NCBI GenBank assembly: GCA_003153555.1
Contig: PLZS01000164.1
Location: 1-64,000 of the forward strand
Source: Candidatus Melainabacteria bacterium
Lineage (GTDB): Bacteria; Cyanobacteriota; Vampirovibrionia; Obscuribacterales; Obscuribacteraceae
DNA: 64,000 nt
Reading direction: 5' to 3'
Part shown: one piece after another, positions 10,242 through 16,801 of the stretch
Numbering within the stretch: position 1 is the first letter of the stretch
Layout of the letters: each line of letters opens with the position of its first letter
Translations under genes and position numbers: made by a program
Notes under the pieces: model-generated
The model's input: the letters and a program-made list of their open reading frames with translations, nothing else
What the model was told of the DNA's origin: nothing
The model's database searches: none

Positions 10242-11060
10242 TTATTTCTTCTTGTTTCTCAGGCTAGATAGTTCTTTCAGATAGAGAACAAGCGAATCGA
10301 TTTGTTTTTGCGCAAGCGGTCCACCCGCCTCGCCTCCAAAGCCTGGCATGGCGTTTGTCGTCTTGCTTCCTTTTGTGATGACAACCTTTATATGCTCATA
10401 GTAAAGAGGATTGTCGTAAGGTCCGATCAACGTTGGTCCGCTCTCACCCTCTGCTTTCGGTCCGTGACACATGGCGCAATCTGCATTGTATAAGTTACGT
10501 CCGAATTCACCAACTCCTCTCGCTGCATGACAAGAGGCGCAGTTTTCATCGGTCAATATCTTGGCTTTGGTATTTTCCGACAAGCCTTGGTGCTGGTTTC
10601 GCACAAACATTTTCAAAGCAAGCTCAACGATTGGTCTTTGTGGATCATTGGATGACACATTCAAAGTTTTTGTAACACCGTTTTGTTTCATACTGGTATC
10701 AACGGTGACAAATAGATTCGTAGTCTCGCCCGGCTCAAGTGTCTTCTTGGCGAATTTCGGCACGGTGCAGCCACACGACGCGTATGCTTCCACTATCTTT
10801 AATGTGCCAGCGCCGCTGTTGGTTACCTTGAAGGTGTGGTTGATCCGCGCGCCCTCATCCACGGTGCCAAAATCAAAGACTTGAGCGTCAAATTGGATTT
10901 TAGGCTTTTCACCGACGTCGGCAGCAGAGCCGATTAAGTGCTGTGAGAGCGCCGTTAGAGCCACTATGCAAACAGCGATGCTGAGTGTTTTAGTCGGAAG
11001 AAGAATTTTTCCGCTGTTACTTCTTTGAAATTTTGATCGTTTCAACATCATCGATAGCAA
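10242..11060 (-). CDS. Exported DUF1573 - cytochrome c fusion protein
   Basis: A 272-residue exported protein. A signal-like helix (residues about 24-46) is followed by a DUF1573 immunoglobulin-like domain (about 54-150) with its typical ASCGCTVPKF motif at residues 95-104. A C-terminal class I cytochrome c domain has CAMCHG at 195-200 for covalent heme and Met238 (NAMPGFGG) as the likely axial ligand. A second CxxCH (CASCH, 174-178) lies 21 residues earlier, which may bind a second heme or be a relic. The function is probably periplasmic electron transfer or redox sensing; the partner is unknown. The frame starts at a TTG (11060) overlapping the upstream DUF190 gene by 44 bases; ATG codons at 11051 or 11048 are alternatives. 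Confidence 0.82.
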   Translation of the reverse strand: MLSMMLKRSKFQRSNSGKILLPTKTLSIAVCIVALTALSQHLIGSAADVGEKPKIQFDAQVFDFGTVDEGARINHTFKVTNSGAGTLKIVEAYASCGCTVPKFAKKTLEPGETTNLFVTVDTSMKQNGVTKTLNVSSNDPQRPIVELALKMFVRNQHQGLSENTKAKILTDENCASCHAARGVGEFGRNLYNADCAMCHGPKAEGESGPTLIGPYDNPLYYEHIKVVITKGSKTTNAMPGFGGEAGGPLAQKQIDSLVLYLKELSSLRNKKK

Positions 11061-11349
11061 TCAACCCTTCTTCGATCATCTCTTCCACTATTGGCAGTAC
11101 TTGAGCCACTTTCTCCGCTGTTTCAAGAAACATGACGATGTCCGGCAAACTAATTGCTAGATCAAGAATACGAGTAGTGTGGATTTGTTTATGGGTGCCA
11201 AATCCAGCGCTCCCTTTGAGTACGGTCGCGCCTGCGCACCCCTCTTTTTTAAGCCTTTCCAGCAATGCCGCAGCCAAGTTGCCATGTTGATACCGATCGG
11301 TCTCAGTGACAAAAATCATGACTCGTTTCATCGTTGCTCTAGTCTGCAT
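11017..11349 (-). CDS. DUF190 family protein (CrcB-associated)
   Basis: A 110-residue cytoplasmic protein of the DUF190 family (PF02641), PII/GlnB-like in fold and often encoded next to the fluoride exporter CrcB. Visible features are KRVMIFVTETDRYQ at the start, HTTRILDLAISLPDIVMFLE in the middle and an acidic IVEEMIEEGL helix. I chose the ATG at 11349 because AAGAGGT lies about six bases upstream; the open frame runs further but would overlap crcB. It starts ten bases after the crcB stop and overlaps the cytochrome gene, so the three form an operon. A regulatory role in fluoride efflux is inference from context. Confidence 0.82.
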   Translation of the reverse strand: MQTRATMKRVMIFVTETDRYQHGNLAAALLERLKKEGCAGATVLKGSAGFGTHKQIHTTRILDLAISLPDIVMFLETAEKVAQVLPIVEEMIEEGLIAIDDVETIKISKK

Positions 11350-11359
11350 GAATGACCTC

Positions 11360-11752
11360 TTAAGTGATGCGACCAAGTAAGTAACCGAGGAACACGGCAA
11401 GCAAGCCTAGTACCAAGTTGCTTGCCACATTTGCGATTGCCAAAGTGGTATCACCTTTCTGGTACAGATTGAGCGTTTCCCAGGCAAAAGCACTGAAGGT
11501 TGTGAAGCCTCCCGAAAAACCCGTAGTGATTAGCAGTCTTAAGTTTGGATCGATCGCTCCCGGCTTGGCTAGAGACAGGCTAAATACATAGCCGAGAAAA
11601 GCACTACCTATTGTGTTGACAAACAAAGTCGCCCAGGGAAATGTCGTACCGAACCAATTGCCGAAATAGTGGCCGCTCCAAAATCTTGCGATTGAACCGA
11701 CAGAACCACCAAGAGCTACAGCCAGTGTGTTGATCAGCAGGGCATTGTTCAT
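11360..11752 (-). CDS. crcB: Fluoride ion channel CrcB/Fluc
   Basis: A 130-residue inner-membrane fluoride exporter that works as a dual-topology dimer. Four hydrophobic helices are evident. The family signatures are present: GGSVGSIARFW near the N-terminus, NTIGSAFLGYVF, and TTGFSGGFTTFSAFAWE with the Phe/Thr/Ser residues that line the pore. Length is normal. AAGG lies eight bases before the ATG at 11752. It heads a crcB-DUF190-cytochrome operon. I looked for a fluoride riboswitch upstream (11753-11831) and did not see its conserved core. Confidence 0.93.
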   Translation of the reverse strand: MNNALLINTLAVALGGSVGSIARFWSGHYFGNWFGTTFPWATLFVNTIGSAFLGYVFSLSLAKPGAIDPNLRLLITTGFSGGFTTFSAFAWETLNLYQKGDTTLAIANVASNLVLGLLAVFLGYLLGRIT

Positions 11753-13878: not shown

Positions 13879-14571
13879 CTAGGCAACATGGATGTATGGT
13901 CTTAAGTTTTCATTCGGCTCGCTTGTGCGAATCAATTCCCTGGTCAGAGGTGCGGTCTCACCTTCGCCAAAGAGAATAAATTTCCATGCGTAAGATAACG
14001 GATGCGCGTCCGTCCATCCCATATAGACATGGGGAATCTTTTTTGTTTCCTTGGCAATGTGCAGCAATAGCGAAGCAATGGCCACAGGTGCCGATTGACA
14101 CTTGCAACGAAATATTTTGTAGTCGCCGGAATTCATTCCTTTAACTTCAATTTTTTCCTTGCCGGCATTTGCGTCCTTTGTCTCTATTTCTAAAAATATG
14201 AATGAGCCTTCTTCTGGTTGAATGCTGTTACGCTCTCGGGCTTCCTCTTCTCGGATCCTATAATCTTGTGTGGAGACACGATGAGCAAGAAAGTGAATTT
14301 CCAAAGAGTCGCTTCCGAGTGCCTCTTCAAGGTATCCAGCTGCCCTCTTGTCGAGAACGATAGGTACTATTTTTAGTTGACTGGCGCGCATTATGTGCAA
14401 GACATTTCCGGCTAGTAGAATTGCAAAAATGACACCATATAGAATACCGTCCAGTCCAGAGAATCGTATACTCAGACTGATCGAAATGATCGTCATAATG
14501 AACAGACACAGGCAGGTGAGAATGCGATGCTTTCTTTGCTTTTGTGCCATTTTGGCGTCTACCATTGCCAT
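13879..14571 (-). CDS. Small membrane protein with the transporter-tail module
   Basis: A 230-residue protein with two N-terminal membrane helices (residues about 17-37 and 40-60) followed by a soluble module (about 70-230). This module is clearly homologous to the C-terminal tail of the APC transporter encoded immediately upstream: both share FLAHR/LLAHR, EEEAR/EENAR, FRCKC/MRCKC, HVYMGWT/HVYLGWT, FGEGETA and LTRE. The start is five bases after the transporter stop, so both are co-translated. It looks like a duplicated regulatory or partner domain freed from the pore. I do not recognise the module itself. Start could be the second or third ATG (14565 or 14550). Confidence 0.75.
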   Translation of the reverse strand: MAMVDAKMAQKQRKHRILTCLCLFIMTIISISLSIRFSGLDGILYGVIFAILLAGNVLHIMRASQLKIVPIVLDKRAAGYLEEALGSDSLEIHFLAHRVSTQDYRIREEEARERNSIQPEEGSFIFLEIETKDANAGKEKIEVKGMNSGDYKIFRCKCQSAPVAIASLLLHIAKETKKIPHVYMGWTDAHPLSYAWKFILFGEGETAPLTRELIRTSEPNENLRPYIHVA

Positions 14572-14576
14572 CTTTT

Positions 14577-16478
14577 CTAACCTAAGTGCACAAAAGGACG
14601 TTTACTTTCTTTCGCTTCGGTGCAGCGAAGTATTTCGCGCGTTAACATAGCGGTTTCACCTTCACCAAAAAATATATACTTGAATACGTTGGCAATTGGA
14701 TCGCCTTCGGTCCAGCCAAGATAGACGTGCGGATTTTTCTCCGTCTGCCTGCGAATATTCAGCAGTATTGCGGCAATCCCATTAGGAACGGCAGGACACT
14801 TGCAGCGCATGATTTTATAACCATCAAGCTCTATTCCTGATACCTCAAGAAGAGCTTCTCCAAAGTTGGAGACTTCCGTGGGTTCAACTTCAACAAAAAT
14901 GAAATCGCCTTCGCGCAATTGAATGCTATGCACGCGTCTGGCGTTTTCTTCTTTCTCCTTGTAATTGTTTCTGCCAATTCGGTGAGCAAGCAGGCGAACT
15001 TGCCCTAGATTTTGTTTGCACGCTTGTTCAATAAATCTCTTTGCCGTCTCGTCGAATTCTACTCTTTCGATTCTCAGCTCCGTAGAGCGAAGCGCCCTTG
15101 ATAGAGCCGACGAGAACAAAATGCACAAAATGAAAAACGTCGCAATCCTTAAACCATCTGGTCTTTCAGTGATGTTTGCTCCAGTCGTATAGATAAAAAT
15201 CAAAGTGATTATGCAGAACCAGCCGCGCAGCATCGGGAATTCTTTCCACACCTTGATCGTGGAAACCACTGCTGCCGACGTCATCAGGACTAGAACGCCA
15301 GTCGCATACGCTCCCGCCTGAGCATCGACGTCGGCTCTAAACAAAATTGTGACTGCAAAACCGACAGCCGTGAAAAAAATTACTAACGGCCTAACCGCTG
15401 TAGTCCACGCGGGAGCCATGCCAAATCTTGGCAAATATTTGGGCACAAGGCCGAGCAAACCGGCAATTGCTGAAGCGCCTGCGAACCAAAGTATGAGAAT
15501 TGTGCTGATATCATATGCAGTGCCAAAGGATTCTCCCATATATTTGTGAGCGAGATAGGCAAGCGCGCGACCATTTGCTGGACCACCAGGCGCGAATGAT
15601 TCATGGGCAATCAGAAGCGTACTCACCACGCTGCTGCCCATGAGAAATACAGACATTATTAGCGCGGCTGTGGCCAGCAAAAATCTGGTGTGAAGTATTC
15701 GTCCATCTTTATTCTCTTCTGTATCTGTGACAGCTCCTTTCACAAGCGGCATTACTGCAACCCCCGTTTCAAAACCGGACAAGCCCAGCGCCAGTTTGGG
15801 GAAAACGAGGGCGGCGGCCAGGAAAATGGCCGGAACTGAGCTGAATTGTGAGAAAAGATTTGATTGCCAATTCGTCACAGTTTGCCAGTTTGAGGATAGA
15901 ACACCAAAACAATTCAGCACCAAGATTGCATTCAAGATAAGGTAGCAAGTGACAATGACGAAGCATAAGCCAATCGCCTCATTGAACCCTCTGTAAAATA
16001 TTGCAGCAAGGGAAAAGATCAAGATCAAAGTGATCAAGATTGGCTCGTTTGTGTGGAAAGATCTTACAAAGAGCGGATTTTGAACAATGTGCGCCGCAGC
16101 ATCAGCAGCTGAAAGAGTAATGGTAATGATGAAGTCGGTGGCGGCAAACCCGAGTAGCAGCAATATAACTATTTTACTCAGCCAACCGGATAGAAGTTTT
16201 TCCAGCATAGCCAGACTGCCTTCACCATTCGGGCTATGTCGTGCGACCACATAGTAGACAGGCAGTGCACAAAAAATTGTCACCACAACTAAAACTAGAG
16301 TGCTGATTGGCGACAAAATACCTGCCGCCAGAAAGGCGATGCCTGGCTGATAGCCAAGCGTTGAAAAGTAGTCAACGCCGGTTAAGCACATCACCTTCCA
16401 CCAGTGATCTTGTTGAGCAGGTTGATCCGATGGCTTTTCGCCAGGCTTGAGTTTCCTTGTTTTTTCCTTTGGGGACAT
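14577..16478 (-). CDS. APC-superfamily permease with a long cytosolic C-terminal module
   Basis: A polytopic transporter of the amino acid-polyamine-organocation type, 633 residues from the preferred ATG at 16478 (GAGAGA five bases upstream; a TTG at 16511 is possible). The first segment shows [18 protein letters not shown], where the broken first helix of LeuT-fold carriers binds substrate. About 12 helices follow up to residue 455. The remaining 160 residues form a soluble domain (FLIE-type helix, then [30 protein letters not shown] and [13 protein letters not shown]). This resembles K+ or amino acid carriers with regulatory tails, such as KimA-like proteins, but the tail is not one I recognise. 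The substrate is unknown. Confidence 0.8.
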
Positions 16479-16801
16479 AAAATCTCTCGTTGCTGTTTGG
16501 GCTATACCCAAAATTTTGGCTGAGCGAATCGAGAGAGTTCTTCATCAGTGTCTCGATGGAGCGACATTCTTTTGTTTTCAATTTTCTTGTCTGATATCGA
16601 ATACGGTATCACTGATTCTTGAGCGTTATTTCAGGCAAAAAACTGCCCTCATATTTCTAAAGCTGAGGCACAGGCTTTCAAGAAAAAATTGCCGAACTGC
16701 AGGGTCTAAACTGATTGATGCAATTCTGTAATTCGTCGCTCTGGCTGTTTTTCCTAACTACATCGAATTCGCTTGAATTGTATATGAACGCGATGCACTA
16801 A
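16479..16801. other. Intergenic region upstream of the APC transporter
   Basis: This 323-base gap between two minus-strand genes presumably holds the transporter promoter. It is AT-rich. No riboswitch core, including ydaO/c-di-AMP, was recognised, and no gene. Confidence 0.4.

Follow-up and report, generated by a model that had tools for sequence, protein, structure and literature searches.

We analysed a 64,000-nucleotide window, that is, the whole stretch of DNA taken from contig PLZS01000164.1 of a Candidatus Melainabacteria bacterium, in which two adjacent genes lie on the minus strand. The larger gene (14577-16478) encodes a full-length transporter of 633 amino acids when read from its ATG start, or of 644 amino acids from an alternative TTG start at 16511. 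Five bases separate its stop codon from the start of the smaller gene (13879-14571), which encodes 230 amino acids. The initial annotation had described the transporter tail as recurring in a stand-alone protein five bases downstream, and BLASTP bears this out: the small protein matches the transporter C-terminus with 42% identity and 67% positives over 184 residues (E 7e-52). Motifs AHR, EE-AR, RCKC, HVY-GWT and FGEGETA-LTRE were found in both proteins as described. The copy had been taken to comprise the last 160 residues; the tail is indeed copied, but the copied part is longer, since the match of the small protein against the genome spans query residues 24-229 and takes in TM11-12 as well. 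Chance similarity of the two proteins is ruled out by the E value of 7e-52. A split or frameshifted single gene is likewise ruled out, because the transporter retains its own complete TM11-12 and tail. The duplication of the C-terminal part of the transporter into the small gene is real.

AlphaFold2 models of both proteins gave corresponding architectures. For the transporter (mean pLDDT 87), a LeuT-fold domain with 12 transmembrane helices followed by a C-terminal cytosolic domain was predicted. The transport core, delimited by hhalign, comprises TM1-10 (residues 26-413; 15240-16403) and bears the putative K+/H+ residues discussed below. TM11-12 (residues 414-466; 15081-15239), recognized by the model and by residue conservation, form the duplicated hairpin, modelled at 415-464. 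The cytosolic domain (residues 467-633; 14580-15080), defined by BLASTP and the model, contains an alpha/beta domain at 472-632 and, close to its end, an FGEGETA loop (residues 604-610; 14649-14669), of which G605 and G607 are invariant in 64 of 64 family members. For the small protein (mean pLDDT 86), two membrane helices at 8-38 and 41-64 were predicted, as the initial annotation had it, followed by an alpha/beta domain. Its hairpin (residues 8-64; 14380-14550) has a positively charged N-terminus, with five Lys or Arg and one Asp or Glu among the first 17 residues. The cytosolic domain (residues 65-230; 13882-14379) is universal-stress-protein (USP)-like by a weak structural match in VIA and retains the FGEGETA loop in its sequence (residues 201-207; 13951-13971).

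To what family does the transporter belong? Sequence searches of Pfam, NCBIfam and the PDB returned no notable match for either protein, and a family profile found no match among PDB sequences. The transporter matched neither AA_permease_2 (PF13520) nor the Kup model K_trans (PF02705) of Pfam. Scanning genome contigs with a profile confirmed at least 569 family members among at least 595 pattern matches; the best 80 of these at least 569 came from Obscuribacterales, Nostoc and relatives, Streptomyces, Arthrobacter, Acidobacteriota, Meiothermus and others. From the family, 64 diverse members were used for residue conservation and Pfam tests. In Foldseek, the best PDB matches of the transporter model were three KimA entries (8b70 with E 1.8e-13), followed by SLC12 transporters. 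VIA aligned 509 residues to KimA 8b70 with Z 43.0 and 16% identity, the high rmsd of 13.7 reflecting a different placement of the two domains. KimA entries reached Z 43.0, 42.7 and 40.0 versus 37.6 for the best amino-acid transporter, and KimA was the top match by both methods over transporter residues 22-633.

KimA (YdaO) of Bacillus subtilis belongs to the KUP family, is a swapped homodimer and takes up K+ by K+/H+ symport (PDB 6s3k, 8b70, 8b71); it shares with the transporter the LeuT fold, 12 transmembrane helices, a cytosolic alpha/beta domain, the K+ and H+ residues and an Arg in the TM8-9 loop. It differs in overall sequence (about 16% identity), in a cytosolic domain that cannot be aligned, and in matching AA_permease_2, which most family members do not. 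The SLC12 cation-chloride cotransporters (NKCC1, KCC3, NCC), the next-best full-length Foldseek matches, also combine a LeuT fold with a C-terminal alpha/beta domain, but they are eukaryotic, have a larger cytosolic domain and show about 10-13% identity.

Profile-profile comparison (hhalign) aligned the membrane domain only (E 1.8e-6, probability 89.8, KimA residues 27-401). According to the available text of two structural studies, the K+ site of KimA is lined by D36, Y43, T121, T230 and Y377, and E233 is the proposed proton coupler (PMC6994465, PMC10284832). KimA D36, Y43, T121, T230, E233 and Y377 pair with transporter D36, Y43, T119, S234, E237 and Y391, which are conserved in 64, 61, 64, 64, 64 and 61 of the 64 members, respectively; the position of T230 is thereby Ser throughout the family. 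KimA R337, the TM8-9 loop Arg, corresponds to R351 and is present in 62 of 64 members. An Arg or Lys in this loop may be common among APC transporters. R337 is also the only residue of the KimA c-di-AMP pocket (P479, V506, H579-S582, R337) with an equivalent here, the cytosolic domains being unalignable by sequence. KimA-like proteins of S. venezuelae are 39-42% identical to KimA as far as the available text reports (PMC10117811); kinship of such a recognisable kind was not found for the transporter, at about 16%. Owing to this low identity, the missing PDB match of the family profile and the restriction of the profile match to the membrane domain, the transporter is KimA-like rather than KimA proper. 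The assignment of the family to the KimA type is well supported; K+ transport is what we infer from it. The genome of the window also encodes a true KimA homologue (L197 8355-10268, G000:C8:46354-48267; 43% over almost the full length), and thus two KimA-type lineages coexist there.

The genomic neighbourhood of the family was then considered. Among 80 loci gathered by sequence alone, each with about 3 kb of flank, nine contained kdp genes and five others a KimA homologue (14 of 80, from Actinomycetota, Acidobacteriota and Obscuribacterales); the other 66 had neither neighbour. KdpA was present in 14 of 20 chosen genomes of the window's class, and in eight of these 14 a transporter copy lay within 13 kb of it, versus 0.23 expected by a chance estimate that treats related genomes as independent. 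On the transporter tree, the kdp-linked label requires eight changes, at least five of them forced by starred branches, and the linkage occurs on several branches. While loci L180-L186 had been chosen for a nearby KdpA, ten others (L187-L196) were chosen blind, and one of them, L190, holds kdp. In this genome (G023), kdpA, kdpB, kdpC, a kdpD-like gene and the transporter follow one another, with an overlap between the kdpD-like gene and the transporter. A TrkH gene begins five bases downstream of the transporter in Deinococcus deserti, and a mechanosensitive channel gene lies upstream of it in Granulicella. Seven annotated plasmid regions include one with TrkH and five without any K+ gene; an eighth, unannotated region from Arthrobacter has a TrkH-like frame nearby. 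TrkH was found in none of the 20 class genomes, and Kup matched in none of 14.

As a side observation, members of this 'amino acid transporter' family are repeatedly linked with kdp operons in Obscuribacterales and Streptomyces (L190, G023:C3, 9841-18236; L082, L180-L186; L091, L113, L135, L139, L144, L145, L151, L154, L158), and the annotations we saw ignore this K+ evidence. The KdpD-like protein of L190 (11726-13684; 653 aa) matches KdpD, Usp, DUF4118 and GAF models and no histidine-kinase domain at E 1e-5. In L196 (9807-14099, G000:C98), another copy of the transporter in the window's genome has, about 70 bases upstream of it, the end of a gene for a P-type ATPase (768 aa, E1-E2 ATPase).

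Judged by the KimA-closest fold, the conserved K+/H+ residues and the kdp and KimA neighbours, the large gene most likely encodes a K+ importer. Database products read differently: plasmid-borne members are annotated as 'amino acid transporter' or 'APC family permease', and the initial annotation also spoke of an APC permease, a label that holds at the superfamily level, with the substrate evidence favouring K+ over amino acids. If these names were taken literally, the protein would import amino acids or other organic solutes and its tail would sense something unrelated to K+. Many amino-acid APC transporters do match the membrane domain (VIA Z 28-38), two of the 64 members match AA_permease_2, though KimA does so too, and an asparaginase gene adjoins the transporter in one Deinococcus. 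Set against these points are the conserved K+-site residues, the recurrence of kdp, KimA and TrkH neighbours, and KimA as best fold match, and we regard an organic-solute permease as unlikely.

The initial annotation had not recognized the module shared by the two proteins. We identify it as the domain that a KimA-like transporter carries on its cytosolic side, for which the best, albeit weak, structural match is a USP-like fold. The three top VIA matches of the small protein were USPs (Z 7.9, 6.9 and 6.6; rmsd 3.1-3.8, 96-111 aligned residues), values which lie below the safe level of the tool and of which even Z 7.9 can reflect mere arrangement. KimA followed further down with weak scores (Z 6.1 and 5.5). 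Foldseek gave nothing for the small protein at E 0.001 or less, Pfam Usp (PF00582) matched neither tail nor small protein at E 1 or less, and profile comparison of the transporter tail with the KimA cytosolic domain detected no sequence similarity. The tail weakly resembles USP and KimA domains. The match at Z 6.9, second-best for the small protein, is the c-di-AMP-bound USP domain of KdpD (PDB 7ji4), which may have the USP-like fold and a link to K+ physiology in common with it but is a module of a histidine kinase, with a low score and no sequence match. A nucleotide ligand for the tail domain is plausible. In KimA, the cytosolic domain binds c-di-AMP and forms a dimer whose main interface is the linker after TM12, as stated in the available text of PMC10284832; that of PMC6994465 likewise has KimA dimerising through cytosolic domain and linker. 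A c-di-AMP synthase domain scored above cut-off in 13 of 14 class genomes. A c-di-AMP riboswitch at the locus was dismissed, as Rfam searches of the window and four partner loci returned tRNAs only.

Is the small gene conserved? In a survey of 50 family genomes, in which absences refer to the matches listed, we found it in seven. Intact copies lie directly downstream of the transporter in the window's genome (G000) and in G014, G031, G061 and G063; a contig end splits the G062 copy, and the G060 copy is truncated at the contig start but has next to it the 4 kb that its relatives have there too. All six genomes of genus g13 thus carry it at the same syntenic site (four complete, two cut by contig ends). 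Among the matches listed, the window's genome is its only occurrence outside g13, and within the window's own genus it is present in one of three genomes and missing from G001 and G002. Conservation therefore holds for g13 and does not extend to G001 and G002 or to most of the family. The copy in G061, which was outside the three-sequence profile, scored 337 bits, while no fused tail exceeded 251. When genome contigs were searched with the small protein alone, none of 25 pattern matches was confirmed. Apparent stand-alone tails in G022, G033 (C554, C348), G016, G027, G069, G070 and G000:C186 turned out to be contig-end fragments and were excluded from the counts.

Comparing G014 with G063, we obtained a dN/dS of 0.060 for the small gene versus 0.030 for the transporter; other pairs were saturated or nearly so, and the window's copy has no close pair. 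In g13, the small gene is under purifying selection. In a quick tree, the five small proteins grouped together (SH-aLRT 94), but an alternative topology, in which the window's small gene pairs with the tail of its own transporter, fitted equally well (p-AU 0.615, better by 4.73 log units); the trees are thus compatible with one origin of the small gene as well as with two. Tandem full-length transporter copies occur in G009 and at L104, L116 and L149 (Acidobacteriota), where they may form heterodimers, and short or stop-bearing tail remnants in G013, G026, G030, G033 and G034; together, tandem transporters and degraded tails show how the small gene can arise.

An alternative is that the small gene is a functionless, decaying remnant of a transporter tandem duplicate: full-length tandem copies are common, tail remnants exist in five genomes, and the window's copy sits on a long branch (1.87). 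Yet decay is hard to reconcile with the low dN/dS of the G014-G063 pair (the window's own copy lacking such a pair, so that decay there stays conceivable), with syntenic presence in all six genomes of g13 (in two of which a contig end cuts the gene), or with soluble invariants that persist in five of five proteins while anchor residues drift. We thus consider decay very unlikely.

What the small proteins have kept and lost indicates what they may do. Identity across three g13 pairs is 65-82% for the soluble part, against 28-49% for the anchor. Twelve soluble invariants of the fused proteins (F528, E530, G548, A569, P583, Y586, W589, P594, G605, G607, E615 and R618), including both Gly of the GEG loop, are retained in all five small proteins. 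From the linker after TM12, D476 and A479 are kept in five of five and E467 in four of five. Most TM11-12 invariants have been lost, as have S537 and F539 in five of five, and for this reason the small protein cannot simply replace a transporter half. The small protein retains its cytosol-facing side and parts of the linker and has lost most residues that would pack in the membrane domain; we read it as a free, membrane-held regulatory and dimerisation module. The initial annotation had suggested a module in cis with a free partner; this stands in so far as the module occurs both in cis and as a free anchored paralogue, under purifying selection in one genus. Its further suggestion, that the free partner could oligomerise with the pump, would accord with the dimerisation of KimA through this domain and linker.

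The residue pattern could also point away from the neighbouring transporter. With most of TM11-12 and S537/F539 lost and the soluble core kept, the small protein might be an anchored nucleotide-binding or signalling protein for some other target, or a nucleotide sink. We judge this rather doubtful: in five of five complete cases the small gene directly follows a transporter, always one from the same broad clade, no intact lone copy was seen elsewhere in the 50 family genomes among the matches listed, and the retained linker residues D476, A479 and, in four of five, E467 belong to what is the main dimer interface in KimA.

We put the chances at about even that the small protein acts as a free regulatory subunit, anchored in the membrane, for the KimA-like K+ transporter and tunes the response of the latter to a cytosolic nucleotide. 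According to this proposal, the large gene would encode a K+ importer of the KimA type, H+-coupled, LeuT-folded and dimeric through its cytosolic domain. The small gene would have arisen by partial tandem duplication, or from a tandem duplicate later trimmed, retaining TM11-12 and the cytosolic regulatory domain, and presumably forms an operon with the transporter. The hairpin would hold the small protein at the membrane, where it would most likely pair with the cytosolic domain of a transporter, replacing the second transporter subunit. Such pairing could tune the response of the transporter to a cytosolic nucleotide, with c-di-AMP as prime candidate. Here we infer the hetero-assembly, the direction of its effect (probably a brake or a changed ligand response) and the ligand.

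The nearest working precedent for a free regulatory copy is the MthK K+ channel, whose regulatory domain is likewise both fused to the pore and free, the two co-assembling; the available text describes a gating ring that requires RCK domains of both forms, four fused and four free (PMC9440719). In MthK, as far as that text goes, the free copy is soluble and is the product of an internal start within a single gene, whereas here it is a separate, diverged and membrane-anchored gene product, and fold and transporter class differ. That a KimA-class transporter copied its own dimerisation and sensing module into a dedicated free subunit, so that mixed complexes set K+ uptake as in MthK, is a tentative possibility. 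For KimA-like transporters, a literature search found no account of a free tail; this counts only weakly as evidence of absence. We know of no free tail paralogue for KimA.

If the proposal of a dedicated free subunit is correct, this transporter class would here have its first split regulatory subunit, and the large family to which the transporter belongs would be mislabelled as amino-acid permeases. Hundreds of contigs (Streptomyces, Nostoc, Acidobacteria and others) carry the transporter without a domain model of its own. Its identity as a K+ importer would give Obscuribacterales, in which TrkH and Kup were not found, a testable K+ route besides Kdp. The free tail would be a natural case of a cis-regulatory domain turned into a separate subunit, and adding or removing one small gene would allow the roles of dimerisation and second messengers in KimA-like transporters to be tested. 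Elsewhere in the window, at 11017-11752 on the minus strand, a DUF190 gene and a CrcB gene overlap, a pair which we presume to serve fluoride export.
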